Source of the DNA: an uncultured Ectothiorhodospiraceae bacterium
GTDB lineage: Bacteria > Pseudomonadota > Gammaproteobacteria > UBA6429 > Thiohalophilaceae
Direction: 5' to 3'
Assembly: GCA_947258695.1 (NCBI GenBank)
Contig: CAMYJG010000004.1
Coordinates: 1 to 64,000 of the forward strand
DNA: 64,000 bases
The position numbers and the translations under genes were made by a program. The stretch's first letter is position 1, and the number at the start of each line of letters is the position of its first letter. The notes beneath the pieces are model-generated. The model was not told the origin of the DNA and made no database searches. It was given only the letters and a program-made list of their open reading frames with translations. Shown here piece by piece: positions 12,313 to 64,000 of the stretch.

Positions 12313-12429
12313 TTTTTCTAAAGTTTTAAAGCAGAAATTATATTTGCTGAGAATAGCGAGTTCTTGCCGTGATTCGTTTAAAATACGTTGGTTTTGAAAT
12401 AAAGTAATTGAATTTTATCAGGGGTAACA

Positions 12430-49222: not shown

Positions 49223-50342
49223 CTTATTGCTTCTTCTTTTTGTGACAGGTTTATTTTCCATTGCTACCCTGCAAGCGGAAAATTCTCGTTTTACTTTTTC
49301 TAGTGAAGGAATGCAATTAAAAGTTGAACGAGTTGCCGATGGTTTTGCAATTCCCTGGGGGCTGGCATTTTTATCAAAGAATAAGCTCCTTATTACTGAA
49401 CGTTCTGGTTCAATATTTCTTCTCAATATCGAGAAACGATCAAGAATTAAAATTAGTAATTCACCTCTGATTAAGCATGAAGGGCAAGGTGGTATGCTGG
49501 ATGTTGCTGTACCTCCCGACTATAAACCCGGCGGCTGGATATATTTTACTTATGTAAAAGATGAGGATGGGGAAGGTGTGACAGTGCTGGCCCGTAGCAA
49601 GTTACAAAATAAACGGTTTATTGAATGGCAGGAGTTGTTAGTCTCAGAATCAGCAACAGACACGAGTTATCATTTCGGCAGTCGCATAAGCTTTGATAAT
49701 GCTGGCCATGTGTATTTTGGTATAGGTGATCGTGGAGAACGTCCCAATTCACAGGATTTATCAAATCATGCTGGAAGCATTATCCGTTTAAATCTTGATG
49801 GTTCTGTACCAGGTGATAATCCATTTATAAATAGAAAAGATGTTTTACCTGAAATATGGAGCTATGGGCATCGTAACCCACAAGGTCTGGCTTTTGATGC
49901 TGAATTTAAGCGGCTCTGGGAAATAGAACACGGGCCGCGTGGTGGCGATGAAATCAATCTTATTAAGAAAGGAAAAAATTATGGTTGGCCGGTAATTTCT
50001 TATGGAAAAGAATATTGGGGACCAATTGCGGTTGGTGAAGGAACACACCGAGAAGGAATGGAACAACCGCTTAAAGTCTATATTCCTTCTATTGCACCGG
50101 GTAGTTTAATTCTCTATACAGGCAGCGCCTTTCCAAAATGGAAAGGTAACTTATTTGCAGGCGCTTTAAAATTACGACACATAAACCGTATTGTATTAAA
50201 TCGAAGTGGTAAACCTGTTAAAGAAGAACGATTATTTGAATCTTTTGGTCAACGTATTCGAGCATTAGCACAAAGCCCTGAAGGCGGGATATATTTTTCA
50301 ACAGATAGTGGGCATATATACAGGCTCAGAGCTAAAAAGTAA
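49200..50342 (+). CDS. PQQ-dependent aldose sugar dehydrogenase-like protein
   Basis: A 380-residue exported beta-propeller. Signal peptide LLLLLFVTGLFSIATLQA, then IPWGLAFLSKNKLLITERSG, HEGQGGMLDVAV, FGSRISFD, YGHRNPQGLAFD, EHGPRGGDEINL and the end GGIYFSTDSGHIYRL. These are the PQQ and calcium motifs of soluble YliI/Asd-type dehydrogenases that oxidise sugars in the periplasm. No PQQ synthesis genes are in the window. Start overlaps the preceding gene. Confidence 0.88.
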   Translation: MSYPLKNSLLLLLFVTGLFSIATLQAENSRFTFSSEGMQLKVERVADGFAIPWGLAFLSKNKLLITERSGSIFLLNIEKRSRIKISNSPLIKHEGQGGMLDVAVPPDYKPGGWIYFTYVKDEDGEGVTVLARSKLQNKRFIEWQELLVSESATDTSYHFGSRISFDNAGHVYFGIGDRGERPNSQDLSNHAGSIIRLNLDGSVPGDNPFINRKDVLPEIWSYGHRNPQGLAFDAEFKRLWEIEHGPRGGDEINLIKKGKNYGWPVISYGKEYWGPIAVGEGTHREGMEQPLKVYIPSIAPGSLILYTGSAFPKWKGNLFAGALKLRHINRIVLNRSGKPVKEERLFESFGQRIRALAQSPEGGIYFSTDSGHIYRLRAKK

Positions 50343-50395
50343 TTTCATTATTTCTCTATTTCAAATTAAATCTAGATATTTATCCCTGTAATTTG

Positions 50396-50412
50396 TGCAC
50401 TTAATAAGTGCA
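50396..50412. promoter_or_regulatory. NtrC binding site 1, upstream operon
   Basis: TGCACTTAATAAGTGCA matches the NtrC dyad TGCACY-N5-RGTGCA exactly. Its centre lies about 146 bp before the -24 element of the sigma-54 promoter at 50548, an ordinary enhancer distance. Confidence 0.8.
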
Positions 50413-50421
50413 AAAGTAAAG

Positions 50422-50442
50422 TAATCACTAATAAAGTGATTA
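50422..50442. promoter_or_regulatory. NtrC-like site 2, upstream operon
   Basis: TAATCACT-aataa-AGTGATTA keeps the CACT-N5-AGTG core and spacing of site 1. The two centres are 28 bp apart, close to three helical turns, so NtrC dimers could stack on the same face. Confidence 0.6.
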
Positions 50443-50547
50443 ATCTTGGTGCGTTTGTCGAATTATTTGTTTCCCGTTTCTATAAAAATTTCATTTCTTT
50501 TCGTCATTTATCGCCATTTTTGTACCTAAATAGCCAGATATGGTGTG

Positions 50548-50564
50548 TTGGCATTCTTTTTGCT
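50548..50564 (+). promoter_or_regulatory. Sigma-54 promoter of the flavo-cytochrome operon
   Basis: TTGGCATTCTTTTTGCT has GG and GC exactly 10 bases apart, as required for the -24 and -12 elements. Transcription would start near 50576, just ahead of the first leader hairpin. Confidence 0.8.
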
Positions 50565-50578
50565 CTAAAGAAATAAAC

Positions 50579-50626
50579 TAATCGTCACCGATTGTTGAAA
50601 GTAGGCATTAGCTAAAGACGGCTGAT
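50579..50626 (+). ncRNA. ANTAR (NasT) two-hairpin leader element
   Basis: The second hairpin (50607-50626) is ATTAGCT paired with GGCTGAT around the hexaloop AAAGAC, which has the A at position 1 and G at position 4 that ANTAR antiterminators recognise. The first hairpin (50580-50593, AATCG/CGATT) does not show that loop signature. The element lies between a sigma-54 promoter and an intrinsic terminator, and nasT is encoded about 4.7 kb downstream. Confidence 0.7.
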
Positions 50627-50664
50627 TTTACTTTATTACTACAGATTATTTTATTGGGCAAAGG

Positions 50665-50714
50665 CGCCTACATGTATTCCAAATGCATTTGGAGTGCATG
50701 TAGGCGTTTTTTTT
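50665..50714 (+). terminator. Leader attenuator terminator before the flavo-cytochrome gene
   Basis: Ten-base-pair stem (CGCCTACATG and CATGTAGGCG) capped by the palindrome CCAAATGCATTTGG and followed by eight Ts. It ends 12 bases before the start codon of the first gene, so transcription must read through it for expression. Confidence 0.92.
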
Positions 50715-50725
50715 GGAAACAGGTT

Positions 50726-52708
50726 ATGAATTTATTGAAAAAAACAACGGTACCATTAAGCGTAGCCGACAATGAAGCGGTTATCGTAATAGGAACAGGT
50801 CCTGTTGGTATCAAGTTTGTTCAAACATTGCTGGAAAATGAAAATACGCCTGTCATTAAAATATTTGGTAATGAGCCCTGGGAACCCTATAACCGGGTAA
50901 AGCTCTCTTCATTTTTTGCCGGACAGGTAGAGATGGATGAATTGGCTATCGGTAAAAATTTAGAAGATAAAAATCTTGTTCTGCATAATAATTGTGAAGT
51001 CATATCAATTGATCCTGTAAGTCGCACAGTAACCGATGAGCTCGGTAATACACACCGGTACTCAAAACTTATTATTGCTACTGGTTCCAGCCCCCATATA
51101 CCAAATATCAAAGGTGTAAATCTTGACAACATATTTACTTTCAGAAATATGTCAGATATTGAGAGCTTGATGTCGAGACGTACACGTTCAAGAAAAACGG
51201 TTGTTATTGGTGGAGGTGTTTTAGGTATAGAAGCGGCTAAAGCTATGACACGTCAAAATACGGAAGTCACTATTATTGATCACTCTTTATCTTTAATGAG
51301 TAACCAGCTGGATGAGACTGCATCAGAGATGTTGCGTGATTACATACTCTCACTTGGGATTAAGGTATACCTCGGGCAAATAATAAAAGAATTTAAAGGT
51401 GATACAAAAGTAGAGAAAATTTTATTGTCTGATGGTCGTGAAATTGAATATGACACGGTTATTTTGTCTACCGGGATAAAACCAAATATTGATTTGGCAA
51501 GAAAAGCACATCTCAGTGTTGGTAAAGGTATTCGTGTAAATGATGCTATGCAAACGTCTAATCAAGATATATATGCGATTGGAGAGTGTGCAGAGCATCG
51601 GGGAAAAGTTTACGGAGTTGTTAAACCAGGTTTAGAACAAGCGAAAGTTGCTGCATATAGTTTGCATGGAAAAAAAGAAAACTATACCGGCTCACTTTCT
51701 GCCACTCAAATAAAGGTTATCGATAAACAAGTATTCTCAATGGGCGACACCTATGAAATATCATCTGTTGGGCTAAGAAAAGAATACGTCTACCGGGATG
51801 ACACAAAAGGTATTTATAGAAAAATAGTGATTAAAACACATGGTATTGTTGGCGCAATTGCCATTGGTGAATGGGATGAGTTAGGACGAATTCAGGAATC
51901 TATCCTGAAAAAACGCTTTGTTCCGCCGTGGGTGTTACTAAAATTTAAAAAAACAGGAAATCTATGGCCAGAAGAAGACTCGAAAAATATCAATGAATGG
52001 CCGGCAGCAACAGTAATATGTAATTGTACGGGTGTAACTCGGGGGCAACTGTCTTCTGAAATATCAAATGGAATTACCACGTTAGCAGACATCGGAACCA
52101 GTACCGGGGCCTCTACCGTATGTGGAGGGTGTAAACCGTTAGTCGCTCAGATGCTGTCAGGCAATGTTCAGGTCGACCCCGTTAAAGGTTCGCGTAATAT
52201 ATTTGTAATGGGATTCTTAACAACACTGATCACATTGTTAGCGATTTTCTTACCGAGCATTCCGTTTGCAAACACTGCCGAAGTCGTTTGGCAATGGGAC
52301 ACAATATGGCGTGATTCTACATACAAACAAATATCCGGTTACAGTCTGCTAGCCTTATCAGTTGTTGCACTATTACTGTCTTTAAGAAAGAGAGTAAAGA
52401 AGTTTTCTTTTTCAAGCTTTCCAGTATGGCGGATTATTCATGTTGCAGTAGGTTTTGCCACAGTTTTTGGGCTTGCCATTCATAGTGGTTATCGTTTAGG
52501 TGAAGGGATTAATTATTACCTGGCACTCAGTTTTATAGCCGTGTTAATTGCGGGTGCTGCATCATCAATTGTAGTAGCCGTTGAGCATAAAATAGATCTT
52601 TCTTTATCACGAAAACTGAAAAATAAATTTGTCTGGCTACATATCCTGGCATTTTGGCCACTACCTGCTTTATTAGCAGTCCATATATTTAAAAGTTATT
52701 ACTTTTAG
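50726..52708 (+). CDS. NirB-like NAD(P)H/FAD oxidoreductase fused to [2Fe-2S] and diheme-b membrane domains
   Basis: A 660-residue fusion. Residues about 17-400 are a NirB/rubredoxin-reductase type FAD and NAD(P)H module (VIVIGTGPVGIKFVQ; VVIGGGVLGIEAAKAM; IYAIGECAEHRGKVYG). A BFD-like [2Fe-2S] domain has C432xC434 and C466xxC469. Five membrane helices follow. Helices 3 and 5 each hold two histidines 13 residues apart (H572/H586 and H639/H653), the HX13H pattern of ferric reductase/NADPH oxidase diheme proteins. NirB's siroheme domains are absent. Predicted path: NAD(P)H to FAD to [2Fe-2S] to two b-hemes across the membrane. The start is ATG 50726 after GGAAACAGG; the longer TTG start lies inside the terminator. 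The electron acceptor is inferred to be the next gene's cytochrome. Confidence 0.85.
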   Translation: MNLLKKTTVPLSVADNEAVIVIGTGPVGIKFVQTLLENENTPVIKIFGNEPWEPYNRVKLSSFFAGQVEMDELAIGKNLEDKNLVLHNNCEVISIDPVSRTVTDELGNTHRYSKLIIATGSSPHIPNIKGVNLDNIFTFRNMSDIESLMSRRTRSRKTVVIGGGVLGIEAAKAMTRQNTEVTIIDHSLSLMSNQLDETASEMLRDYILSLGIKVYLGQIIKEFKGDTKVEKILLSDGREIEYDTVILSTGIKPNIDLARKAHLSVGKGIRVNDAMQTSNQDIYAIGECAEHRGKVYGVVKPGLEQAKVAAYSLHGKKENYTGSLSATQIKVIDKQVFSMGDTYEISSVGLRKEYVYRDDTKGIYRKIVIKTHGIVGAIAIGEWDELGRIQESILKKRFVPPWVLLKFKKTGNLWPEEDSKNINEWPAATVICNCTGVTRGQLSSEISNGITTLADIGTSTGASTVCGGCKPLVAQMLSGNVQVDPVKGSRNIFVMGFLTTLITLLAIFLPSIPFANTAEVVWQWDTIWRDSTYKQISGYSLLALSVVALLLSLRKRVKKFSFSSFPVWRIIHVAVGFATVFGLAIHSGYRLGEGINYYLALSFIAVLIAGAASSIVVAVEHKIDLSLSRKLKNKFVWLHILAFWPLPALLAVHIFKSYYF

Positions 52709-52716
52709 GGTAGCTA

Positions 52717-54105
52717 ATGATGAAGTTATTTAATAACATATGGACTCTTTGGCTGCTTTCCACATTACTGATCCTTGGTTACCTGACTTATATCTTTAAT
52801 GTTGAAGAAAAAGGTATTTTTTCACCGGGAAAATTAACGCATGGTCATCATCAAATAGAGATGGCTTGTTCTTCCTGTCATACCGAACCGCTTGGTGGCG
52901 GTGAGGTGATTCAGGATGCATGTGTTAACTGCCATAAAGAAGAATTAAAGATATCCGACGATTCTCATCCAAAATCTAAATTTACTGATCCAAGAAATAT
53001 ATCCAGGGTTAAGGAGCTTGATGCGCGTGTATGTGTGACCTGTCATACCGAGCATAGAACTAAAATAACAAAAAGTATGGGGGTAACTATTCCTGAAGAC
53101 TTTTGTGTTAAATGTCACTCTGAGATTGCAGAAGATCGGCCAAGCCATAAAGGAATGGAGTTTACTTCATGCGCATCTGCTGGTTGTCATAATTACCATG
53201 ATAATCGTGCCCTGTATGAAGATTTCCTTGAAAAACATATCGATGAACCTCATCACTTGCCTGAAGGTAAAATTAAGAGTGTGAGTTCTCTGGAGGAAAT
53301 TACAACTTCAGCCGGTTATCCTATTAGTAAATACCCAGTAAAAAAATTAACCGGTACAGACATAGAGCTACATCCAGGGATTAAAAAGGACGCCTTGATT
53401 ACAGAAGAGTGGTCAATAACTGCACACGCTCAGGCTGGAGTCAGCTGTAATGCATGTCATAAAGTTAAAGATGATAAAGGTGTCGTAAATTGGGTTGAAA
53501 AGCCTTCACATGATAGTTGCAAAACCTGTCATAAGAGCGAAGTTAAAGGCTTTCTTACTGGTAAGCATGGTATGCGTTTAAATCAAGATTTAAGTGCGAT
53601 GACGCCAGCTATGTCCAGGATTTCAATGAAGTCAACTGCCCATGATAAAGAACTAACCTGTTCAAGTTGCCACAGCTCTCATAAATTTGATGTTAAGCAT
53701 GCAGCAGTCGATGCTTGTTTGAATTGTCATAACGATCAGCATAGTCAATCATACAAAGACTCACCTCACTTTTTGTTATGGCATAAGGAGACATCAGGTC
53801 AGGGTGATAAAAACACAGGTGTCTCGTGTGCAACCTGTCACATGCCAAGAGAAGAAAAAGAACTGGGTGATCAAACCTTAATTCTCACTGAACATAATCA
53901 GAACATGAATCTGCGTCCTAATGAAAAAATGTTACGTTCGGTATGCATGAATTGTCACGGCTTAGGTTTTTCAATTAATGCGCTGGCAGATAAAAAATTA
54001 ATTCAAAATAACTTTAAAGGTTTACCAAAAGTTCACAACCAAAGTATTGATTTGGTGAAGCAACGTTTATTAAAACGTGGGAAACCAAGGGAGGGTAGTC
54101 CATGA
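52717..54105 (+). CDS. Membrane-anchored multiheme c-type cytochrome (11 potential hemes)
   Basis: A 462-residue protein with one N-terminal membrane anchor (LWLLSTLLILGYLTYIF) and a periplasmic domain with ten CXXCH motifs (CSSCH, CVNCH, CVTCH, CVKCH, CNACH, CKTCH, CSSCH, CLNCH, CATCH, CMNCH) plus one CX4CH (CASAGCH) between the fourth and fifth of these. Many extra histidines could be axial ligands. Three-heme clusters recall cytochrome c3/NapC-NrfH relatives, but no named family was recognised. It starts 8 bases after the diheme flavoprotein and is its likely redox partner. Terminal acceptor unknown. Confidence 0.85.
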   Translation: MMKLFNNIWTLWLLSTLLILGYLTYIFNVEEKGIFSPGKLTHGHHQIEMACSSCHTEPLGGGEVIQDACVNCHKEELKISDDSHPKSKFTDPRNISRVKELDARVCVTCHTEHRTKITKSMGVTIPEDFCVKCHSEIAEDRPSHKGMEFTSCASAGCHNYHDNRALYEDFLEKHIDEPHHLPEGKIKSVSSLEEITTSAGYPISKYPVKKLTGTDIELHPGIKKDALITEEWSITAHAQAGVSCNACHKVKDDKGVVNWVEKPSHDSCKTCHKSEVKGFLTGKHGMRLNQDLSAMTPAMSRISMKSTAHDKELTCSSCHSSHKFDVKHAAVDACLNCHNDQHSQSYKDSPHFLLWHKETSGQGDKNTGVSCATCHMPREEKELGDQTLILTEHNQNMNLRPNEKMLRSVCMNCHGLGFSINALADKKLIQNNFKGLPKVHNQSIDLVKQRLLKRGKPREGSP

Positions 54106-54162
54106 CGATAATTTGATTTTTATTGTTAATTAATTACTTAATCTATAAATTAGGAGAATATT

Positions 54163-54735
54163 ATGAAATTTAAATTACTTGCACTAACCAGCTTTATTGG
54201 ACTATCAACAGTTTTATCTGGCTGTGGCGAAACTAAAACAACCGGTATTGAACCACAAACGATGACTGATGCGTTATTTAAAGTAATGGAAGCTGATCGT
54301 ACAGTATATACAAAGCTTATTATTGGACGCTTAGCTAAAAAAGAAAAAGTGATCAAAGCATCTGAGCACTGGAAAGATGAAAAAGCATTAGTGTTACCAG
54401 CACAAATGTTCCGTTATGGCGCTGAACGTGTGGCGGAAAAAACATCTGACTTTAGTTACTCATTATTATCACTATGGCCGGTAAATGCGCAAAATAAACC
54501 AAAAACAGATATCGAGAAAGCTGGTTTAAAATTTATCGCGGAAAATCCTGGTCAAAACTATTATGGTAAAGAAACTTTAGGTGATACCACTTACTTTACT
54601 GCCGTTTATCCGGATGTTGCAGTAGCTGAAGCCTGTATTTCATGCCACAACAAACATAAAGACAGCCCACGTACAGACTTTAAATTGGGTGAAGTTATGG
54701 GTGGTGTAGTTATACGTCTTCCAATCAAAAGTTAA
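54163..54735 (+). CDS. DUF3365 (Tll0287-like) c-heme lipoprotein
   Basis: A 190-residue lipoprotein (signal ends VLSGC) with a DUF3365-type domain: EPQTMTDALFKVMEADRTVYTKLI, FRYGAERVAE, TYFTAVYPDVAV, and a single CISCH heme motif followed by NKHKDSPRTDFKLGEVMGGVVIRLP. Such domains bind one c-heme and are found alone or as sensor modules. It could pass electrons or sense a small ligand in the periplasm. Strong AGGAG site; part of the upstream operon. Confidence 0.8.
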   Translation: MKFKLLALTSFIGLSTVLSGCGETKTTGIEPQTMTDALFKVMEADRTVYTKLIIGRLAKKEKVIKASEHWKDEKALVLPAQMFRYGAERVAEKTSDFSYSLLSLWPVNAQNKPKTDIEKAGLKFIAENPGQNYYGKETLGDTTYFTAVYPDVAVAEACISCHNKHKDSPRTDFKLGEVMGGVVIRLPIKS

Positions 54736-54765
54736 TTATTACTGATTAAGAAAGGAGAAAATATT

Positions 54766-55182
54766 ATGACACCTAGACAAATAGGTTTAATTGGTAGCTC
54801 ATGGGATAAAGTACTGCCTATTCAAGAAAAAGCGGCAGAACTTTTCTATGGTAAATTATTTGAGATTGATCCAGCTTTAAAACCGTTATTTAAAGGCGAT
54901 ATGACAGAGCAGGGCAAAAAGCTTTTTACGATGCTCGATACTGTTGTTAAAAGCCTGGATAATCTTGAAGCAGTTGTTCCTGCAGCCCAGGCATCAGGTA
55001 AACGCCATGCTGGTTATGGAGTTAAAGATAAGGACTATGACACTGTGGCAGAAGCCTTTCTCTGGACCATGGGCCAGGGGCTGGGCGATGATTTTACTGA
55101 TGAAGTAAAAGAAGCCTGGGTAGTGGCATATACAATCCTTGCGGACACAATGAAAGCAGCAGCGAAGGAAGACGCAGCTTAA
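54766..55182 (+). CDS. Single-domain bacterial globin (VHb-like)
   Basis: A 138-residue cytoplasmic globin without reductase domain. The E-helix region DMTEQGKKLFTML carries a glutamine at the distal position as in Vitreoscilla hemoglobin, and the proximal histidine is in SGKRHAGYGV. WTMGQGLGDDFTDEVKEAWVVAYTILADTM matches the G and H helices. Flavohemoglobins and such globins are often tied to nitric oxide or oxygen handling. Its co-transcription with heme electron carriers under nitrogen control suggests NO or nitrite protection, which is inference. AAGGAG ribosome site. Confidence 0.88.
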   Translation: MTPRQIGLIGSSWDKVLPIQEKAAELFYGKLFEIDPALKPLFKGDMTEQGKKLFTMLDTVVKSLDNLEAVVPAAQASGKRHAGYGVKDKDYDTVAEAFLWTMGQGLGDDFTDEVKEAWVVAYTILADTMKAAAKEDAA

Positions 55183-55199
55183 TCATGGTGTAATCCTGT

Positions 55200-55231
55200 T
55201 TCAGGAGAAGGGGATATCTCCTTCTCCTGAA
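55200..55231. terminator. Strong hairpin after the globin gene
   Basis: Perfect 12-bp stem (TTCAGGAGAAGG and CCTTCTCCTGAA) with an 8-base loop. It lacks a T-run on either side, so it may protect the 3' end of the operon mRNA or depend on other factors rather than act as a classical intrinsic terminator. Confidence 0.55.
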
Positions 55232-55344
55232 CATAATTGCAAACAGATCTGCCTGAAAAAAATTACTGAAGTTGTTGATTCGGACGCCATGTATGCATAC
55301 CATTTGTATATATTCCGATGAACTTTGGTATTTAACAGGCATTA

Positions 55345-55929
55345 ATGAAAAAGCTACATGTAACTATAGTTGATGACGATAGTGGTCGTTCGATAATCCT
55401 GGAGCGTGCATTGAAAGATGCAGGTTACGAGATTGTTGACGTTTTGAGTTCAAAAGACAATTTGCTACTGCATATAGAGCAAAGACAGCCAGATGTCATA
55501 ATTGTCGATCTTGAATCGCCAAATCGTGACTCACTTGAGTCAATGCGTATTGTTACCCAGCATAATCCTAAACCGATCGTGATGTTTACTAATGACAGTG
55601 ACCATTCGATGATTGGTGAAGCAATTAATGCGGGAGTGAGCGCCTACGTCGTTGACGGTTTTAGTGAAAACCGAATAAAACCAATTATGGATGTTGCTAT
55701 AGCGCGTTTCAGGGAGTTCCAGGCATTACGTAGTGAGCTGGAAAAAACCAAGAATACCCTGGAAGAACGCAAACTAATTGATAAAGCAAAAGGCATTGTT
55801 ATGGTTCAAAGAAATTGTAGTGAAAATGAGGCTTACAATATACTTCGCAAACTTTCTATGGAGAATAATAAACGTATTGCCGAAGTTGCAGAGCAGCTGA
55901 TTTCTATCACGGATGCTCTCAGTAATTAA
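55345..55929 (+). CDS. nasT: NasT-type ANTAR response regulator/antiterminator
   Basis: A 194-residue protein: receiver domain (1-120) and C-terminal ANTAR RNA-binding domain (LIDKAKGIVMVQRNCSENEAYNILRKLSMENNKRIAEVAEQL). The receiver keeps TIVDDDS and a central aspartate in IIVDLESPNRDS, but the conserved lysine region reads AYVVDGF, suggesting it is not controlled by phosphorylation; in known systems NasS holds NasT until nitrate or nitrite binds. It should release the terminators in the two leaders of this locus. nasS follows after 17 bases. Confidence 0.92.
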   Translation: MKKLHVTIVDDDSGRSIILERALKDAGYEIVDVLSSKDNLLLHIEQRQPDVIIVDLESPNRDSLESMRIVTQHNPKPIVMFTNDSDHSMIGEAINAGVSAYVVDGFSENRIKPIMDVAIARFREFQALRSELEKTKNTLEERKLIDKAKGIVMVQRNCSENEAYNILRKLSMENNKRIAEVAEQLISITDALSN

Positions 55930-55946
55930 ATACTGTCGGAAAGACT

Positions 55947-57173
55947 ATGAGTAAAGAACAGAATAATCATGATCAAGATTTACTTGAAAAAGAAAAGTTG
56001 ACCATTGGTTTTATCCCATTAACTGATTGTGCCACGCTTGTTGTCGCTAAAGAACTAAATTTTTTTGAAAAATATGGCCTCGATGTCACTTTATCAAAAG
56101 AAGCTTCATGGGCCAATATTCGAGACAAACTAGCCTACGGGGTACTGGATTGTGCACAGATGTTGGCAACCATGCCAATAGACACGACATTAGGTCTGGG
56201 CAGCTGGAAAAAAGAAACGGTTACCGCGCTTGTGCTTGGTGTAAATGGCAACGCGATTACTATTTCCAATAAGCTCTACCAGGAACTAAAACACCTTGAT
56301 CCCCATTTTGATGATCAGCGCCCGGTAACCGCGGATGTGCTTAAACAGCTTGTAGAAATGAGGAAGTCTGAAGGCAAGGAACCTCTGACTTTTGCCCATG
56401 TATTTCCTTCCTCAACACATAATTACTTTCTCCGTTACTGGCTTGCTTCTGCGGGTATCGATCCGGACAATGATGTCACCTTAAGTGTGATTCCTCCTCA
56501 ACAAATGGTGAAAAACCTCGAAGCAAATATTGTTGATGGATTTTGCGTCGGTGAACCCTGGAACCAGTATGCGGTACAAAAGGGGATAGGACACGCACTA
56601 ATCACGAGTTATGAAATTTGGAACAATGCGCCCGACAAGGTCTTGGGAGTGAATAAAGAATGGGCATGCAGCCACCCGAATACACACAAGGCCTTAATCA
56701 AGGCGTTAATTGAAGCTGCGGCATGGGCCGATAAAGATGAAAATCGTGAAAAAGTCGCAGAACTCCTGTCTCGCGAGGAATATATCAATGTTCCTGTAGA
56801 AATTATTTCTTCGCCGTTGAAAGGACAGTACAAATACAATGCTGATGGCAAAATGGAGTCATTACCCGATTTTAATGTGTTCCAACGCTATAATGCAGGA
56901 TTTCCATGGTTTTCACATATTGGCTGGTATTTATCCCAAATGATTCGCTGGAAGGATATTTCAGCTTCGCAGGATCCAATAAGTATTTTAAAAGATATTT
57001 ACTGGGTAGATTTCTATCGACAAGTTGTTGATGAAATGGGCCTTGCTTACCCGCTACAAAACAGCAAGGCTGAAGGGACACACTCGGGTCATTGGCAATC
57101 AGAATCAAATACAGGTACTCAGACCATGTCTTCAGACTTATTTTTTGATAAGAAAACCTTCGACTTCATTTGA
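55947..57173 (+). CDS. nasS: NasS-type cytosolic nitrate/nitrite sensor
   Basis: A 408-residue protein of the NrtA solute-binding fold ([49 protein letters not shown]) that lacks a signal peptide, so it stays in the cytoplasm. This is the hallmark of NasS, which binds nitrate or nitrite and controls NasT. Aligns along its length with the exported NrtA encoded next. The order nasT then nasS is used here. Confidence 0.9.
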   Translation: MSKEQNNHDQDLLEKEKLTIGFIPLTDCATLVVAKELNFFEKYGLDVTLSKEASWANIRDKLAYGVLDCAQMLATMPIDTTLGLGSWKKETVTALVLGVNGNAITISNKLYQELKHLDPHFDDQRPVTADVLKQLVEMRKSEGKEPLTFAHVFPSSTHNYFLRYWLASAGIDPDNDVTLSVIPPQQMVKNLEANIVDGFCVGEPWNQYAVQKGIGHALITSYEIWNNAPDKVLGVNKEWACSHPNTHKALIKALIEAAAWADKDENREKVAELLSREEYINVPVEIISSPLKGQYKYNADGKMESLPDFNVFQRYNAGFPWFSHIGWYLSQMIRWKDISASQDPISILKDIYWVDFYRQVVDEMGLAYPLQNSKAEGTHSGHWQSESNTGTQTMSSDLFFDKKTFDFI

Positions 57174-57223
57174 ACGAAATTTTTGCATCAATTCAGGGCA
57201 GATTATAAGCAAATACTAATATT

Positions 57224-57240
57224 CGCACCAAAAAAGTGCA
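57224..57240. promoter_or_regulatory. NtrC binding site, nrt operon
   Basis: CGCACCAAAAAAGTGCA matches TGCACY-N5-RGTGCA at all but the first base. Centre about 98 bp before the -24 element at 57329. Confidence 0.7.
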
Positions 57241-57328
57241 GAAAAATATGTGGTTATTGCCTTCAACACTCCCTGGAAATGCAAGAAATTCTAAGATAAA
57301 CAATGAGATAGCTATGCTTTTCTGAGTA

Positions 57329-57344
57329 TGGCATAGAATCTGCT
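57329..57344 (+). promoter_or_regulatory. Sigma-54 promoter of the nrt-nir-nas operon
   Basis: TGGCATAGAATCTGCT has GG and GC 10 bases apart; the -12 box is CTGCT instead of TTGCW. Transcription would start near 57355. Confidence 0.7.
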
Positions 57345-57352
57345 TTGTATGT

Positions 57353-57383
57353 GATAGCAGTGGCCGATGCAGGTCATACTATT
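57353..57383 (+). ncRNA. First leader hairpin of the nrt operon (candidate ANTAR target)
   Basis: TGGCC (57361-57365) pairs with GGTCA around the hexaloop GATGCA; outer GATAG and CTATT could extend it. The loop has G at position 4 but not A at position 1. A second hairpin with the sequence AAAGTC at its tip (57421-57435) sits at the apex of the following terminator and resembles the AAAGAC loop of the upstream leader. Assignment is by analogy. Confidence 0.45.
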
Positions 57384-57404
57384 TTAGTTAAATTGATATT
57401 GGAT

Positions 57405-57458
57405 AACGGCGTCCATCTATACAGAAAGTCTCTGTCTGGGTGGGCGCCGTTTTATTTT
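57405..57458 (+). terminator. Leader attenuator terminator before nrtA
   Basis: Eleven-base-pair stem beginning AACGGCGTCCA, closed by TGGGCGCCGTT, with an internal ACAGA/TCTGT hairpin and the tail TTTTATTTT. It ends 11 bases before the nrtA start codon. Confidence 0.9.
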
Positions 57459-57469
57459 GGGAGAAAAAA

Positions 57470-58885
57470 ATGAGTGTCATTGAAAATAAACGGTTAGGCA
57501 AAAGACGTTTTCTTAAACGTAGCCTCTTTTCACTAGGAGCTGCTGTTTTAGCAACCACTTTGTTATCACCGTTAACAGCATCAAACGTTATCGCTGAAGT
57601 TGGCGAACCTGAAAAAGAAGAGTTGAAGTTTGGTTTTATCAAACTAACTGATATGGCACCTCTGGCGGTTGCATATGAAAAAGGATTCTTTGAAGATGAA
57701 GGGCTTTATGTCACTTTAGAACCTCAGGCAAACTGGAAAGTATTGCTGGATCGGGTTATCGATGGTGAACTCGATGGTGCCCACATGTTAGCCGGTCAAC
57801 CACTCGGCGCTACCATCGGTTTTGGTACACAAGCTCACATTATTACCGCATTCAGCATGGATTTAAACGGTAATGGTATTACTGTTTCTAACAAAATCTG
57901 GTCTGAAATGAAGAAACATATACCACATAAAAATGGTAAACCGGTACATCCAATCAAAGCTGATTATTTAAAACCTGTTGTTGATAAATATAAATCAGAA
58001 GGTAAGCCATTTAAAATGGGTATGGTTTTCCCAGTATCGACTCATAACTATGAATTACGTTATTGGTTAGCTGCTGGTGGTATTCACCCAGGTTACTACG
58101 CACCGCATAAAGGTGATACTTCTGGTCAAATTAAAGCAGATACACTTTTATCAGTAACGCCACCACCACAAATGCCTGCAACAATGGAAGCCGGTACGAT
58201 CTACGGTTACTGTGTAGGTGAACCATGGAACCAACAAGCGGTATTCAAAGGTATTGGTGTACCTGTTATTACTGACTACGAAATCTGGAAAGATAATCCT
58301 GAAAAAGTATTTGGTGTAAGTAAGAAATGGGCTGATAAAAATCCTAACACTCACGTTCGTGTTGTGAAAGCGATGATTCGTGCTGCACAATGGTTAGATG
58401 CAAATAATAATGCTAACCGTCCTGAAGCAGTAAAAATCTTATCAAAATCTCAATACGTAGGTGCAGACTACGATGTTATTGCAAATTCAATGACAGGTAC
58501 ATTTGAATACGAGAAAGGTGACAAACGATCAGTGCCTGATTTCAATGTGTTCTTCCGTTATAATGCAACTTACCCATATTACTCAGATGCAATCTGGTAC
58601 TTAACGCAAATGCGTCGTTGGGGCCAGATTTCAGAGAAGAAATCTGATAGCTGGTACAAAGATATTGCGAAGAAAGTATATCGTCCTGATATCTATGCAG
58701 TTGCTGCAAAAGAGTTGCTTGCTGAAGGTAAAGTAAAAGCAAAAGACTTCCCTGATTTTGCAACTGAAACAGGTTTCAAAAAACCACAAACTGAATTTAT
58801 CGATAAAGTTACTTACGATGGAACTAAACCAAATGCCTATTTGAAGAAATTCAAAATTGGTTTGAAAGGTAAAGAGAAACTGTAA
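57470..58885 (+). CDS. nrtA: Nitrate/nitrite ABC transporter substrate-binding protein
   Basis: A 471-residue periplasmic nitrate/nitrite-binding protein. The N-terminus looks like a Tat signal: basic GKRRFLKRS followed by [19 protein letters not shown]. Mature-domain features ([67 protein letters not shown]) are those of NrtA/NasF. The ATG at 57470 follows TTGGGAGAA; the GTG 30 bases earlier lies inside the terminator stem and is rejected. First gene of the transporter and reductase operon. Confidence 0.94.
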
Positions 58886-58894
58886 GCGAGATAT

Positions 58895-58918
58895 CCCTCC
58901 ATGTATAAACATGGAGGG
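58895..58918 (+). other. Intercistronic hairpin between nrtA and nrtB
   Basis: Perfect 10-bp stem CCCTCCATGT/ACATGGAGGG with a 4-base loop and no strong T-run. A hairpin in this place is typical after binding-protein genes and would stabilise nrtA mRNA or partly stop transcription, giving more NrtA than NrtB. Confidence 0.7.
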
Positions 58919-58944
58919 TTCATCTTATAACGAGGTAAGGAACA

Positions 58945-59964
58945 TTGAATACACGAGTGCTTAATCTGATGGAAAATAAAGTATTATCAAAATTAACATC
59001 TATACCTAAGTTTAATGAAATTAACTGGGCAAATTTATCTGTACAGTTAGTACAAAAGTTAGGTGTACCTTTAATTGCAATCGGAATTTTCCTTGCTCTA
59101 TGGGGTGCGACTGCATCGCAAATACAGACATCATTAGGTGCAGTACCAGGACCGGTAAAAGTATGGCAACAGACGGTTGTACTCTATGATGAACATGTTG
59201 AAGAAAGAACAAAAGAAGTTGCGTTTTATGAGCGTCAGGAAAAACGTAACGCAAAGAAATTAGAAAAAAATCCTGATGCAAAGATTAAAGTCAGAAGCTA
59301 CACAGGAAAGCCAACATTTTTTGATCAAATAATCACCAGTATTATTACGGTACTCACAGGTTTTATTATTGCATCTTTAATTGCAATTCCTGTTGGTGTT
59401 ATTTGCGGTTTGAATACGACTATTTATAATGCGTTAAATCCTCTAATTCAGACCTTTAAACCTGTCTCACCATTAGCCTGGTTACCTATTGTTACCATGA
59501 TTGTGAGTGCAATGTATATCTCTGATGATCCGATGTTTTCAAAGTCATTTTTGAACTCAGCAATTACAGTAACTTTATGTTGTATGTGGCCAACTATCAT
59601 TAATACTACCGTTGGCGTTTCATCTATCGACAAAGATTTAATCAATGTAAGCCGTGTTTTACGATTGCACTGGCTTACTCATGTTTTTAAAATCGTTTTA
59701 CCTTCATCGGTACCAATGATGTTTGCAGGTCTGCGAGTTTCATTTGGTATAGGTTGGATGGTACTTATCGCTGCAGAAATGCTGGCTCAAAATCCTGGCC
59801 TGGGGAAATTTGTCTGGGATGAATTCCAAAACGGAAGCTCTAACTCATTAGCAAGAATTATGGTAGCTGTATTTGCCATTGGCTTGGTTGGTTTCTTTTT
59901 AGACCGTGTAATGTTGATGTTACAGCGTAGTGTCTCGTGGGACAAAAATGCGGTATTACGTTAA
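58945..59964 (+). CDS. nrtB: Nitrate/nitrite ABC transporter permease
   Basis: A 339-residue membrane protein of the NrtB/SsuC permease type. The EAA-like loop is VSRVLRLHWLTHVFKIVLPSSVPMMFAGLRVSFGIGWMVLIAAEML. An extra charged segment of about 50 residues (EERTKEVAFYERQEKRNAKKLEKN region) lies between the first helix and the transport core; shorter homologues lack it. TTG start after GAGGTAAGGA; ATG at 58969 is possible. Confidence 0.9.
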   Translation: MNTRVLNLMENKVLSKLTSIPKFNEINWANLSVQLVQKLGVPLIAIGIFLALWGATASQIQTSLGAVPGPVKVWQQTVVLYDEHVEERTKEVAFYERQEKRNAKKLEKNPDAKIKVRSYTGKPTFFDQIITSIITVLTGFIIASLIAIPVGVICGLNTTIYNALNPLIQTFKPVSPLAWLPIVTMIVSAMYISDDPMFSKSFLNSAITVTLCCMWPTIINTTVGVSSIDKDLINVSRVLRLHWLTHVFKIVLPSSVPMMFAGLRVSFGIGWMVLIAAEMLAQNPGLGKFVWDEFQNGSSNSLARIMVAVFAIGLVGFFLDRVMLMLQRSVSWDKNAVLR

Positions 59965-60009
59965 TACAAACTACCTTAGCAGATAAGAAAAGAATTCAGG
60001 AGAAGTGAA

Positions 60010-60810
60010 GTGAGTACAAAACATTTAGAGATTAGCCAGGTTTCGATTGAGTTTCCAACTCCCTCAGTCCCATTTAAAGCCTTGGATCAAATTGATTTAT
60101 CAATTAAACAAGGAGAGTTTGTTTCATTAATTGGACACTCCGGTTGTGGTAAATCTACAGTTTTAAATATTGTTGCTGGTTTATACCAGGCAACTGAAGG
60201 CGGCGTTATTCTTGATGGAAAAGAAGTCAATGAACCCGGACCGGATCGTGCTGTTGTATTTCAGAACCATTCATTGTTGCCATGGTTAACTGCCTATGAA
60301 AATGTTGAATTAGCCGTCAACCAGGTTTTTAAAGGTAAAAAATCCAAAGTTGAAATGAAAGAATGGATTGAGCATAACCTGCACCTTGTTCATATGGATC
60401 ATGCTATGCACAAGCGTCCTAGCGAGATATCCGGGGGGATGAAACAACGCGTTGGGATTGCTCGAGCATTGGCTATGGAACCAAAAGTATTGCTAATGGA
60501 TGAACCGTTTGGTGCATTAGATGCGTTAACACGTGCACATATGCAGGATTCATTAATTGAAATTCAACAACGTTTAAATAATACCGTCATTATGATTACG
60601 CATGACGTTGATGAAGCCGTATTGTTATCTGACCGTATCGTTATGATGACAAATGGGCCTGCGGCAACGATAGGAGAAATTCTGGATGTTGATCTTGATA
60701 AGCCACGTAATCGTGTTGAGTTGGCAGATAATGAAGACTACAACCACTTACGTGCACAGGTATTGAAATTCCTGTATGAACGCCAACGTAAGCCTGAAGA
60801 AGCGGCTTAA
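60010..60810 (+). CDS. nrtD: Nitrate/nitrite ABC transporter ATP-binding protein
   Basis: A 266-residue ATPase. Walker A GHSGCGKST, signature SGGMKQRVG, Walker B VLLMDEPFGALD and the switch histidine in MITHDVDEAV are all present. It lacks the NrtA-like C-terminal sensor domain of cyanobacterial NrtC, so it corresponds to NrtD/NasD. GTG start after AGGAGAAG. Works with NrtA and NrtB. Confidence 0.9.
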   Translation: MSTKHLEISQVSIEFPTPSVPFKALDQIDLSIKQGEFVSLIGHSGCGKSTVLNIVAGLYQATEGGVILDGKEVNEPGPDRAVVFQNHSLLPWLTAYENVELAVNQVFKGKKSKVEMKEWIEHNLHLVHMDHAMHKRPSEISGGMKQRVGIARALAMEPKVLLMDEPFGALDALTRAHMQDSLIEIQQRLNNTVIMITHDVDEAVLLSDRIVMMTNGPAATIGEILDVDLDKPRNRVELADNEDYNHLRAQVLKFLYERQRKPEEAA

Positions 60811-60848
60811 TAAAAATAAACTTGATTAACTAAGTACTGGGTATAGAT

Positions 60849-63284
60849 ATGAGTGAAAAATTAGTAGTAATTGGAAATGGCATGGCAGGTATTCGTACTA
60901 TTGAAGAACTGTTGAAAATTGATCCTTTAGCCTATGATATTACTGTTTTTGGCGCTGAGCCTTACGGCAATTACAACCGTATTATGTTATCGCCTGTTCT
61001 GGCTGGTGATAAAACTATCGATGAAATCATGCTTAATGATGAGCAATGGTATATTGATAATCATGTTACCTTGCATAAAGGTAAAGAAGTAACGTCTATT
61101 GATCGTGTTAATCGTAAAGTGATTGCTTCAGATGGTACCGAAGAGTCATATGATCGCTTATTGATAGCCACAGGTTCTGATCCTTTTATTATTCCTGTTC
61201 CTGGTAATGACTTGGATGGTGTTATTTCATTTCGTGACATCAAAGATGTTGACGCCATGATGGAGGCATCGAAAAAGCATAAACATGCCGTTGTAATTGG
61301 TGGTGGTTTATTAGGATTAGAAGCCGCAAATGGTTTAATGCAACAAGGTATGAGTGTCACCGTGGTTCACTTGATGGATAAACTTATGGAACGTCAAATG
61401 GACGCTCCAGCGGCGGCAATGTTGAAAGAGTCACTGGAGGAACGTGGCCTGCATTTCTTAATGGAAGCCTCTACTGAATCAATTATCGGTAAAGACCGGG
61501 TTGAGAAAGTACGTTTTAAAGACGGTTCAGAAATTTATGCTGACTTAGTCGTTATGGCAGTTGGTATCAAACCAAATATTAAACTTGCACAGGATGCAGG
61601 TATTCATTGCGAACGCGGAATCGTTGTAAACGACACGTTGCAAACTTATGATCCTTCAATCTATTCAGTGGGCGAATGTGCTCAGCATCGTGGTATTGCA
61701 TACGGTTTAGTTGCGCCATTGTTTGAAATGGCAAAAGTTTGTGCAAACCATTTAGCAAAAATGGGTATTGGTCGTTATGAAGGCACCATGACCTCAACCA
61801 AATTAAAAGTTACCGGTATTGATTTATTCTCTGCCGGTGATTTTAATGGCGATGATACTACTGATGAACTCGTTTTCCAGGATAAAGCACGCGGTGTTTA
61901 CCGTAAGATTGTTGTTAAAGATAACAAAATTCTTGGTGCGGTCATGTATGGCGATACCATCGACGGTACATGGTATTTCGATCTCATGCGTGATGAAACC
62001 GATATTTCTGAGTTCCGTGAAAATTTACTGTTTGGCCAGGCACATTTAGGTGATTCAGGCCACGGTGATGATAATCGTGTTGCTGCCATGTCTGATAATG
62101 CAGAAATATGCGGTTGTAACGGTGTTACTAAAGGTGAAATTGTTAATGCTATTACTGTAAATAAAATATTCACATTAGATGAAGTACGTGCACATACTAA
62201 AGCGTCTAGTTCTTGTGGTTCATGCACAGGCCTGGTTGAATCTTTAATGTCTCACACATTAGGTGGTGATTATTCAACGGCGCCGCATTTAAAACCGATA
62301 TGTGGTTGTACCGATAAATCACATGACCAGGTGCGTGAAGCCATTGCAGAAAATGGTTTTAAATCTATTCATACCGTTATGGAAGCCATGGAATGGAAAA
62401 CACCAGATGGCTGTAGTAAATGTCGTCCTGCGATCAACTACTACTTAGTGTGCAAATTCCCGGAACTTAATCTGGATGATAGTCAGTCACGTTTTATCAA
62501 TGAACGTGCGCATGCGAATATTCAAGGTGATGGTACTTACTCTGTAATTCCTCGTATGTGGGGTGGAATGACAACCCCGCAAGAATTACGTGCTGTTGCA
62601 GATGCCGCTGAAAAGTTTAATGTTGATACCGTTCATGTCACCGGTGGTCAACGTATCGGTTTATATGGTCTTAAGAAAGACGAGTTACCTGAAATTTGGG
62701 ATGACCTTAATAAAGCAGGCATGGTTTCAGGTCATGCTTATGGTAAAGCACTACGTACGGTTAAAACCTGTGTCGGTAAAGAATGGTGTCGTTTCGGTAC
62801 ACAAGATTCGACAGGCATCGGCATTAAGCTTGAAAAAATGAGCTGGGGCTCATGGATGCCACATAAATTTAAAATGGCGGCATCAGGTTGTCCACGTAAC
62901 TGTGCAGAAGCCACCATTAAAGATTATGGTGTCGTTTGTGTTGATTCAGGTTATGAAATTCATGTCGGTGGTAACGGTGGTATAAAAGTTCGCGCGACTG
63001 ACTTGTTGTGTAATGTTGAAACAGAAGAAGAAGTGCTTGAATACAGTGCAGCTTATATTCAGTTATACCGTGAAGAAGCGCATTATCTTGAGCGTACTGC
63101 ACCCTGGATAGAGCGTGTGGGTTTAAGTCATGTTAAAGAAGCTTTGGTTGATGATTCTCAACGACGTAAAGAGCTGGCTGAACGTTTTAATTATTCACAA
63201 ACCTTTATGCAGGATGATCCTTGGCAAGAACGTGCAAAAGGTGGTGAAGCCCATGAGTTCACACCACTAAAAGTGATCGGCTAA
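60849..63284 (+). CDS. nirB: Assimilatory NAD(P)H nitrite reductase large subunit
   Basis: Reduces nitrite to ammonia in the cytoplasm; 811 residues. The N-terminal FAD/NAD(P)H module (VVIGNGMAGIRTIEELL; VIGGGLLGLEAANGL) is followed by two BFD-like [2Fe-2S] segments (ICGCNGVTKGE with SSCGSCTG; PICGCTDKSH with CSKCRPA). The siroheme/[4Fe-4S] domain has cysteines in TVKTCVGKEWCRFG and MAASGCPRNCAEA. The first ~470 residues are homologous to the flavoprotein at 50726. nirD follows. Confidence 0.95.
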   Translation: MSEKLVVIGNGMAGIRTIEELLKIDPLAYDITVFGAEPYGNYNRIMLSPVLAGDKTIDEIMLNDEQWYIDNHVTLHKGKEVTSIDRVNRKVIASDGTEESYDRLLIATGSDPFIIPVPGNDLDGVISFRDIKDVDAMMEASKKHKHAVVIGGGLLGLEAANGLMQQGMSVTVVHLMDKLMERQMDAPAAAMLKESLEERGLHFLMEASTESIIGKDRVEKVRFKDGSEIYADLVVMAVGIKPNIKLAQDAGIHCERGIVVNDTLQTYDPSIYSVGECAQHRGIAYGLVAPLFEMAKVCANHLAKMGIGRYEGTMTSTKLKVTGIDLFSAGDFNGDDTTDELVFQDKARGVYRKIVVKDNKILGAVMYGDTIDGTWYFDLMRDETDISEFRENLLFGQAHLGDSGHGDDNRVAAMSDNAEICGCNGVTKGEIVNAITVNKIFTLDEVRAHTKASSSCGSCTGLVESLMSHTLGGDYSTAPHLKPICGCTDKSHDQVREAIAENGFKSIHTVMEAMEWKTPDGCSKCRPAINYYLVCKFPELNLDDSQSRFINERAHANIQGDGTYSVIPRMWGGMTTPQELRAVADAAEKFNVDTVHVTGGQRIGLYGLKKDELPEIWDDLNKAGMVSGHAYGKALRTVKTCVGKEWCRFGTQDSTGIGIKLEKMSWGSWMPHKFKMAASGCPRNCAEATIKDYGVVCVDSGYEIHVGGNGGIKVRATDLLCNVETEEEVLEYSAAYIQLYREEAHYLERTAPWIERVGLSHVKEALVDDSQRRKELAERFNYSQTFMQDDPWQERAKGGEAHEFTPLKVIG

Positions 63285-63838: not shown

Positions 63839-64000
63839 ATGCTGTTCGGTCGAAATAAAAAGAATCCCATAAAGATTGCTGATAAAGGTGTCGTTGAATG
63901 GAAATACACGACATGTGGTTATTGTTCAACCGGCTGTTCAATAGAAGTGGGGCTGGATGACAAGGGTGAAGCGGTTGCTTCACGTGGTGTCGGTGGTGCT
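63839..64000 (+). CDS. nasA: Assimilatory nitrate reductase catalytic subunit, N-terminal fragment
   Basis: The first 54 residues of a molybdopterin oxidoreductase, cut by the window end. WKYTTCGYCSTGCSIEVG shows the first three cysteines of the N-terminal [4Fe-4S] site (Cx2Cx3C), as in NasA/NarB. Its position after nirBD and a nitrate transporter supports nitrate reductase rather than another family member. Start ATG 63839 after TTAAGAGAAT. Confidence 0.85.
   Translation, partial: MLFGRNKKNPIKIADKGVVEWKYTTCGYCSTGCSIEVGLDDKGEAVASRGVGGA

Follow-up and report, generated by a model that had tools for sequence, protein, structure and literature searches.

Known periplasmic multiheme chains mostly draw on the quinol pool, and in ferric reductases and NADPH oxidases two HX13H helices hold b-hemes stacked across the membrane. 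In Bradyrhizobium, the narK-bjgb-flp-nasC operon couples nitrate assimilation to the removal of nitric oxide (NO) under NasT (PMC4724949, from the part of that report available to us). Here we analysed a stretch of 64,000 nucleotides (the window) from an uncultured Ectothiorhodospiraceae bacterium (contig CAMYJG010000004.1), in which four genes at positions 50726-55182 encode a flavin-membrane protein (FRD), an eleven-heme cytochrome (MHC), a Tll0287-like lipoprotein (TLL) and a globin (GLB). In this set, a single polypeptide, FRD, appears to link NAD(P)H directly to a periplasmic multiheme wire. We propose that the set is a nitrate-switched NAD(P)H-to-periplasm electron exporter, likeliest to act on reactive nitrogen at the TLL heme. 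Taken as a whole, we give this statement a probability of roughly 0.43. An outward, NAD(P)H-driven electron chain is likely; reactive nitrogen as its target is a tentative assignment.

The set has in common with the Bradyrhizobium operon a single-domain globin, a FAD/NAD(P)H flavoprotein, NasS-NasT and a nitrate setting. Bradyrhizobium Flp, a protein of 418 aa and of cytoplasmic type, is unlike FRD, and the operon, as described in the available part of that report (PMC4724949), lacks any counterpart of the membrane di-heme part, of the multiheme cytochrome and of the Tll0287-like lipoprotein. The Uet undecaheme complex of Tenderiales also contains an 11-heme cytochrome, as in MHC. Its described partners set it apart: in the part available these are NHL proteins, triheme cytochromes and a porin, with neither a globin nor a membrane flavoprotein of the NirB kind (PMC10734462). 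Our searches of an open-access library turned up no description of the four-gene set. New here are a NasT-type leader upstream of FRD, an MHC that lacks octaheme heme 4, and a TLL that lacks the axial Cys and is the most conserved member of the set. The domain make-up, the invariant residues, the conserved gene set, the leader and the absence of octaheme heme 4 are features of the sequences themselves.

A conserved four-gene set

The four genes are intact, lie on the + strand and are separated by gaps of 8, 57 and 30 bases:

50726-52708, + strand: FRD, 660 aa, with a FAD/NAD(P)H module, a Fer2_BFD [2Fe-2S] domain and five membrane helices
52717..54105, + strand: MHC, with an N-terminal membrane anchor, a five-heme cytochrome c3-like part and a six-heme octaheme-HAO-like part without heme 4
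54163..54735, + strand: TLL, Tll0287-like (heme-Cache) lipoprotein with one CXXCH, lipobox C21 and no other Cys
54766..55182, + strand: GLB, single-domain globin with no N-terminal hydrophobic segment

A preliminary description of this DNA, made from the sequence alone, had placed here four genes in one direction with gaps of 8-57 bases, and had read them as a NirB-like flavin and [2Fe-2S] module fused to five helices with two HX13H pairs, an 11-heme cytochrome, a c-heme lipoprotein and a globin. The domain matches, predicted helices, conserved His residues and heme sites given below agree with that reading.

A scan with MHC as query over one genome per species (84,980 species) returned 233 relatives. 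The analysis is based on the best 80 loci, two of which, L049 and L087, share one contig. FRD adjoins MHC in 78 of the 80 loci, being elsewhere in one and cut by the contig end in another. TLL does so in 74 (four elsewhere, two cut by the contig end). In 50 loci a globin gene follows within 2.5 kb downstream, and in 3 more one lies elsewhere. Of the other loci, 20 lack a globin and 7 are truncated by the contig end. Counted anywhere in the locus, the globin is single-domain in 42/80 and truncated in 12/80, and the position after TLL is taken by either of these two families. In L043 this position holds a tandem fusion of two truncated globins (12293-13099). A monoheme cytochrome c is present in 33/80 loci, usually directly after TLL; the one member scanned matches Cytochrome_CBB3/Cytochrom_C. 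A ferredoxin-type reductase occurs in 10/80. The absence of co-occurrence that the preliminary description had raised as an objection is not borne out, the genes occurring together widely in these 80 loci. Record titles place them in Gammaproteobacteria, Burkholderiales, Alphaproteobacteria, Planctomycetes, Verrucomicrobia and Lentisphaerae, as well as Polyangium, Acidobacteriota, Binatia and Dadabacteria; many are metagenome-assembled genomes. Carriers named in these titles that can be cultured include Alcanivorax nanhaiticus, Hahella ganghwensis, Pseudomonas benzenivorans and Marinobacter sp. A tblastn search of PLSDB plasmids with MHC returned no match.

FRD joins a NirB-like module to a membrane part

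FRD matches Pyr_redox_2, Rubredoxin_C and one Fer2_BFD domain in Pfam, every one over its cut-off. Membrane helices are predicted at 489-508, 531-553, 565-587, 595-618 and 625-659. The HX13H pairs H572/H586 and H639/H653 sit in predicted helices 3 and 5 and are the predicted ligands of two b-hemes. A third pair with this spacing, H110/H124, is located in the soluble domain and was disregarded. An upstream TTG start at 50654 (684 aa) was rejected, as it would begin inside the leader described below. In an alignment of 69 sequences (the window and 68 of the 80 loci, after an 85% coverage filter), Cys432, Cys434, Cys466, Cys469, R569, H572, H586 and H639 are invariant and H653 is kept in 68. The loop between helices 2 and 3 carries five positive and no negative charges, that between helices 1 and 2 one positive and three negative. 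Because the former is strongly positive and the latter is not, the flavin side would be cytoplasmic and the end of helix 5 outside. Pairing of H572 with H639 and of H586 with H653 would then give two b-hemes stacked across the membrane. The structure model of FRD has a mean pLDDT of 87.8 and a pTM of 0.67. The invariant [2Fe-2S] and di-heme ligand residues, together with the near-constant position of MHC next to FRD, support the NAD(P)H-to-periplasm path of the preliminary description.

The best curated NCBIfam match of FRD is NirB (TIGR02374, 399.9 bits for a cut-off of 578), and covers only the N-terminal part of the profile (2-479 of 794). The two proteins share the FAD/NAD(P)H and BFD [2Fe-2S] module. 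Unlike NirB, FRD has no siroheme part (NIR_SIR) and carries instead five helices and two His pairs. With ferric reductases and NADPH oxidases, FRD shares the two HX13H helices and an NAD(P)H-driven transmembrane path, but its flavin domain is of the Pyr_redox_2/ferredoxin-reductase fold with a [2Fe-2S] center, not of the FNR type. It also differs from ferric reductases in that its membrane part is weakly similar and in that it stands beside a multiheme cytochrome. The fold of the flavin part is that of ferredoxin reductases, as in toluene dioxygenase reductase (Z 38.7, root-mean-square deviation (rmsd) 2.4, 389 residues aligned), and whole-FRD fold searches returned flavin-domain matches throughout. 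The membrane part, aligned for 51 of the 69 sequences, weakly matches DUF4405 (21/51 members, best 3.6e-5), the b561-type Ni_hydr_CYTB (16/51, best 2.1e-6) and Ferric_reduct PF01794 (8/51 at E up to 1, best 0.019). A search of PDB sequences with this part alone found nothing at E up to 10. A known family of the same domain order, the other objection foreseen in the preliminary description, was not found: neither a listed Pfam model nor any NCBIfam model among the best 25 of 57 matches covers the soluble and membrane parts together.

In the Polyangium loci L068, L079 and L084, FRD is 1252-1297 aa long, and in the first two of these a low-complexity linker of several hundred residues lies between the BFD and membrane parts.

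MHC resembles octaheme enzymes without their heme 4

MHC has eleven heme sites, ten CXXCH and one CX4CH, a pattern common to 80/80 related sequences. Its N part matches cytochrome c3 families in Pfam. Profile matches of its C part in the PDB include NrfA (4.5e-10) and octaheme nitrite reductase (9.2e-10). Region 214-435 aligns with the HAO fold (Z 7.4, rmsd 3.7, 189 residues aligned), under the tool's secure level, and a Foldseek search with MHC returned no match at E <= 0.001, the best being HAO at 7.9e-3. The likeness of this multiheme core to HAO, octaheme nitrite reductase and NrfA thus lies in profile matches and a middling fold match. In MHC, unlike in these enzymes, heme 4 is missing and the core is coupled to a membrane anchor and a c3-like part with five hemes.

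Three profile alignments relate the hemes of MHC to those of octaheme cytochromes. They were made against six octaheme cytochromes (probability 99.6, 201 columns), five others (probability 99.1, 186 columns) and four strong members of Pfam Multi-haem_cyto, which we take to be HAO (probability 97.3, 138 columns). In all three, the counterparts of MHC hemes 6-10 are octaheme hemes 2, 3, 5, 6 and 7. Heme 11 falls on octaheme heme 8 in two of them and lies outside the HAO alignment. At the position of octaheme heme 4, as judged by alignment, CXXC[HK] is found in 0/81 MHC sequences, and CXXCK is absent from all 80 relatives. Heme 4 is the catalytic heme of HAO. In 81/81 sequences the 11 heme His are invariant, as are exactly 11 His besides them; five heme and five further His belong to the N part and six and six to the C part. 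Because heme 4 is absent and one further invariant His is available per heme, MHC probably works as a wire with eleven bis-His c-hemes and not as an enzyme.

The resemblance to octaheme enzymes could also mean that MHC is itself an HAO/NrfA-type reductase of nitrite, NO or hydroxylamine fed by FRD. The NrfA and octaheme nitrite reductase profile matches, the HAO fold match and the three alignments with octaheme groups would fit such an enzyme, as would a sub-threshold stretch (6.4 bits) in which MHC heme 9 coincides with the heme that has a Lys ligand in octaheme nitrite reductase. However, heme 4 is skipped with nothing in its place, no CXXCK is seen, each heme has a spare invariant His, and the NrfA match combines two stretches whose order is reversed. 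We therefore regard an MHC reductase as improbable. The preliminary description had electrons delivered to a periplasmic heme chain, perhaps for nitrite, NO or a metal. The path stands, but MHC is probably not itself the nitrite or NO reductase, since octaheme heme 4 has no counterpart in it.

TLL and GLB

TLL matches the Tll0287-like family PF11845 (3.5e-20, 73.3 bits, cut-off 24.1). TLL sequences were available from 66 of the 80 loci, and 29 of them were aligned with that of the window. The Cys and His of the CXXCH are invariant in all 30. The axial Cys of Tll0287 is absent from TLL: after residue 30, only the two Cys of the CXXCH are found, in 66/66. TLL thus has the family profile and the heme site of Tll0287-like heme-Cache proteins but, unlike Tll0287, it has no axial Cys and belongs to a conserved operon with a multiheme cytochrome. 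Given the missing axial Cys, its heme is possibly open. A PDB sequence search with TLL gave no match at E up to 1. In the same 31 loci, to which the comparison was limited since they hold all four proteins, mean identity is 59% for TLL, 56% for GLB, 49% for MHC and 40% for FRD. A lipobox-like site is present in 66/82 TLL sequences, with an Asp at +2 in just one.

By the lipoprotein sorting rule, the lipobox pattern hints at outer-membrane sorting of TLL and is one argument for a different destination of the electrons. The chain could reduce a metal such as Fe(III) or Cu(II), or dump surplus electrons outside, with FRD akin to a ferric reductase or NADPH oxidase and MHC and TLL akin to an extracellular relay. 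The paired HX13H helices, the weak matches of the membrane part to DUF4405, Ni_hydr_CYTB and Ferric_reduct, and the word "Biocath" in the titles of 2/80 loci are also consistent with this. We nonetheless consider it unlikely: no porin-cytochrome partner was recognised by eye among the recurring neighbour clusters, from which eleven clusters had been set aside, also by eye, as apparent non-coding frames, and the nitrate switch and the globin partner are left unexplained.

GLB matches PF00042 (Globin, 6e-17). Tyr28, Gln49 and His81 are invariant in 41/41 sequences (40 loci and the window). His81 is presumably the proximal His, and we assume that Tyr28 and Gln49 form a distal pocket as in NO-removing globins.

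The Tll0287-like family was redefined as heme-Cache domains in a 2026 preprint, in the available part of which a signalling-type member without the axial Cys releases NO slowly (PMC12889525). TLL could be imagined as a terminal enzyme, a catalytic Cache domain whose open c-heme reduces NO (or nitrite) in the periplasm and which is fed directly from NAD(P)H, under a nitrate switch, through FRD and an MHC wire of disarmed-HAO type. In this strict form, the proposal is doubtful.

Another possibility is that FRD serves to maintain a pool of periplasmic c-cytochromes in the reduced state, for use by a peroxidase, a terminal oxidase or an NO reductase, TLL and the small cytochrome being mere carriers. 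The monoheme cytochrome found in 33/80 loci, as a rule after TLL, argues for this, and stand-alone Tll0287-like proteins were judged redox-like in the available part of the same preprint (PMC12889525). Among the recurring neighbour clusters, however, no peroxidase or oxidase was recognised by eye, and TLL is conserved above MHC and FRD, seemingly more than a generic carrier needs. Such a role is in our view rather unlikely.

A NasT-type leader precedes FRD

An RNA leader at 50607-50714, not mentioned in the preliminary description, lies ahead of the set:

50607..50626, + strand: leader hairpin P1, 7-bp stem, hexaloop AAAGAC with A1/G4
50655..50670, + strand: leader hairpin P2, 5-bp stem, hexaloop AAAGGC with A1/G4, overlapping the 5' arm of the terminator
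50660..50714, + strand: intrinsic terminator, predicted 24-bp helix at 50660-50711 and T run to 50714

The T run stops 11 bases short of the FRD start codon. The predicted fold of 50570-50725 has an energy of -52.6 kcal/mol (z -6.15). According to the available part of a study of ANTAR proteins, their targets carry two hexaloop hairpins with A1 and G4 ahead of a terminator, and the same features were noted in nasF, a target of NasR (PMC3369931). The FRD leader fits this rule for ANTAR/NasT target RNAs, with its two A1/G4 hexaloops before a terminator, and the set is very likely under NasT control in this genome. No Rfam family matched at E up to 1 across 50200-60900.

Upstream scans covered 66 loci with enough sequence, and the controls were not matched for first-in-operon position. 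In a loose scan with 5-bp stems, A1/G4 loops were seen in 28/66 FRD leaders versus 84/421 controls, and terminator-like sites in 10/66 versus 23/421. With stems of at least 6 bp, A1/G4 hexaloops occur in 18/67 FRD upstream regions versus 10.7% of controls, and with stems of at least 7 bp in 14/67 versus 3.8% of 420 controls. As an internal control, 16 loop classes were compared, among which A1/G4 is a clear outlier (stems of at least 7 bp).

The form in which P2 overlaps the terminator is found in the FRD leader of the window, in its nrtA leader and in 7/66 other FRD leaders. It also occurs in 9/420 control genes, 5 of them nrtA-like and 3 of them porins of nitrate loci. The motif is supported by this distribution, since eight of the nine control matches are nrtA or porin genes in nitrate loci. 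At five of the seven FRD leader loci (L056, L061, L062, L069 and L081), the available stretch shows no ANTAR gene; L056 and L062 nevertheless hold other nitrate genes.

The porins with a NasT-type leader (L020:14203-15438, L028:12303-13544 and L034:13097-14326) are candidate nitrate porins; that of L020 matches Pfam Alginate_exp.

Association with nitrate genes

The preliminary description had set the genes inside a nitrate-assimilation locus. This is the case in the window, where genes for a NasT-like ANTAR regulator, a NasS-like sensor, NrtABC, NirB and NirD follow the set, but it does not hold as a general rule (see below). At the level of whole genomes, a tie to nitrate is supported by association as well as by the leader. 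In a survey of 276 genomes of the window's class, MHC was found in 23, NirB in 135 and ANTAR proteins in 91; the Fisher tests that follow take genomes as independent. ANTAR proteins are present in 20/23 MHC genomes versus 71/253 without MHC (p 3.4e-8), and NirB in 19/23 versus 116/253 (p 8e-4). Within NirB genomes, an ANTAR protein accompanies MHC in 17/19, versus 60/116 without MHC (p 0.002). NasT probably also controls the set in some of the other genomes that carry it.

A search with the molybdoenzyme encoded downstream of nirBD gave matches at E <= 1e-110 in 20/23 MHC genomes versus 119/253 without MHC, and at E <= 1e-90 in 26/27 genomes of other classes, for which there is no control set. 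We give these counts little weight because the query matches NasA-, NapA- and formate dehydrogenase-like enzymes alike.

Proposed electron route

The following route is our inference, most of all as to the acceptor but also in the direction of flow, the heme pairing and the binding of NasT. On sensing of nitrate or nitrite, NasT would bind the leader at 50607-50714 and stop termination. In the cytoplasm, NADH or NADPH would hand hydride to FRD, and electrons would pass from FAD to the [2Fe-2S] center, then to the heme b of H572/H639 and the heme b of H586/H653, crossing the inner membrane. The membrane-anchored MHC would relay them through eleven bis-His c-hemes over the periplasm to the TLL heme. 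In about four in ten loci, a small cytochrome c may also receive electrons from MHC. As the likeliest end use, the TLL heme would reduce NO or a kindred reactive nitrogen species, and NO on the inner side would be removed by the globin in the cytoplasm. Reactive nitrogen is our preferred target because nitrate or nitrite is what the switch senses, because globins of two families recur at one position, because TLL, a heme-Cache protein, lacks the axial Cys, and because there is a tested precedent in Bradyrhizobium. Reduction of a metal and maintenance of a reduced cytochrome pool are nevertheless rivals to be reckoned with.

Several points weigh against this proposal, starting with NO as the acceptor, to which the evidence leads indirectly. 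In the available part of the heme-Cache preprint, a stand-alone Pseudomonas putida protein bound NO weakly, both with its axial Cys and after a Cys-to-Ala change, and stand-alone domains as a group received the redox-like verdict already cited (PMC12889525). From the Cys-to-Ala result, loss of the axial Cys alone need not create an NO site in TLL. The conservation of TLL is barely above that of GLB (59 versus 56%), and 20/80 loci have flanking sequence yet no globin. For MHC, the heme pairing rests on His counts, as the models carry no hemes; stretches of low confidence lie mainly in the five-heme part, and the 6.4-bit stretch at heme 9 runs counter to the heme pairing that we prefer.

The link to nitrate has its own difficulties. 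Nitrate genes are nearby in only 11/40 loci with at least 7.5 kb on both sides. The P2/terminator form is seen in only 7/66 other FRD leaders, and two of these seven, from Porticoccus (L061 and L069), are near-identical. An ANTAR protein is present in only 13/27 MHC genomes taken as other classes (27 of 29 loci placed by their titles outside Gammaproteobacteria proper, L091 and L095 being left out). MHC is found in 0/7 other genomes of the genus and 4/29 of the family (matches below 1e-100), a patchy presence which makes the set dispensable for the lineage. Genome G199 has two MHC copies (contigs C23 and C31) and no NirB, ANTAR or NasA-like match at the limits used.

G199, a genome of 1.7 Mb, is a good place to look for a nitrate-independent use of the set.

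If the nitrate-switched exporter is real, it would represent an unrecognised cost or safety valve in nitrate assimilation. It would also assign a role to a heme-Cache protein that stands alone, and would show a multiheme enzyme fold made into a wire through loss of its catalytic heme.

Neighbouring genes

Downstream of the set, the regulatory genes and a second leader element are the following:

55345..55929, + strand: NasT-like antiterminator (receiver and ANTAR domain matches), presumed regulator of the FRD leader
55947..57173, + strand: NasS-like nitrate sensor (NMT1_2), named from position and family, presumed partner of NasT
57400..57453, + strand: second NasT-type leader element, before nrtA, with a P2 hairpin (loop AACGGC) and a terminator

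A scan with 5-bp stems found no A1/G4 P1 hairpin in the nrtA leader. The start of nrtA is likelier to be ATG 57470 than the listed GTG 57440, because the latter falls inside the terminator. The NirB gene at 60849 carries the NIR_SIR siroheme/4Fe-4S domains, unlike FRD.

These neighbours bear on the alternative put forward in the preliminary description, in which FRD is a membrane-tethered donor for the assimilatory nitrate reductase, like the NasB/NasC flavoproteins. FRD has a FAD/BFD module of the NirB kind, as nitrate-reductase flavoproteins do, and the association of MHC with NirB and ANTAR genomes would suit such a role. Yet MHC, beside FRD in nearly all loci, would be superfluous for this donor, and a 4Fe-4S/DmsC-like subunit of its own accompanies the molybdoenzyme here. 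Genomes with this fused subunit are weakly linked to MHC (7/23 versus 38/253 without MHC, p 0.07). A tethered donor is thus disfavoured, and appears very improbable.

The genes for the molybdoenzyme (726 aa) and for the fused subunit after it follow nirBD, from 63839-64000 of the window on to 67902 of the same contig (L098). The molybdoenzyme scores higher with formate dehydrogenase alpha (TIGR01591, 596 bits) than with NasC (533 bits), both under cut-off, and the label "nitrate reductase" is not certain. The fused DmsB(4Fe-4S)-DmsC-like membrane subunit is present in 45/276 genomes of the class. Together, the two possibly form a quinol-linked assimilatory nitrate reductase. G203 and G045, for example, also have a second homologue on the same contig, in an open frame of ~885 aa.

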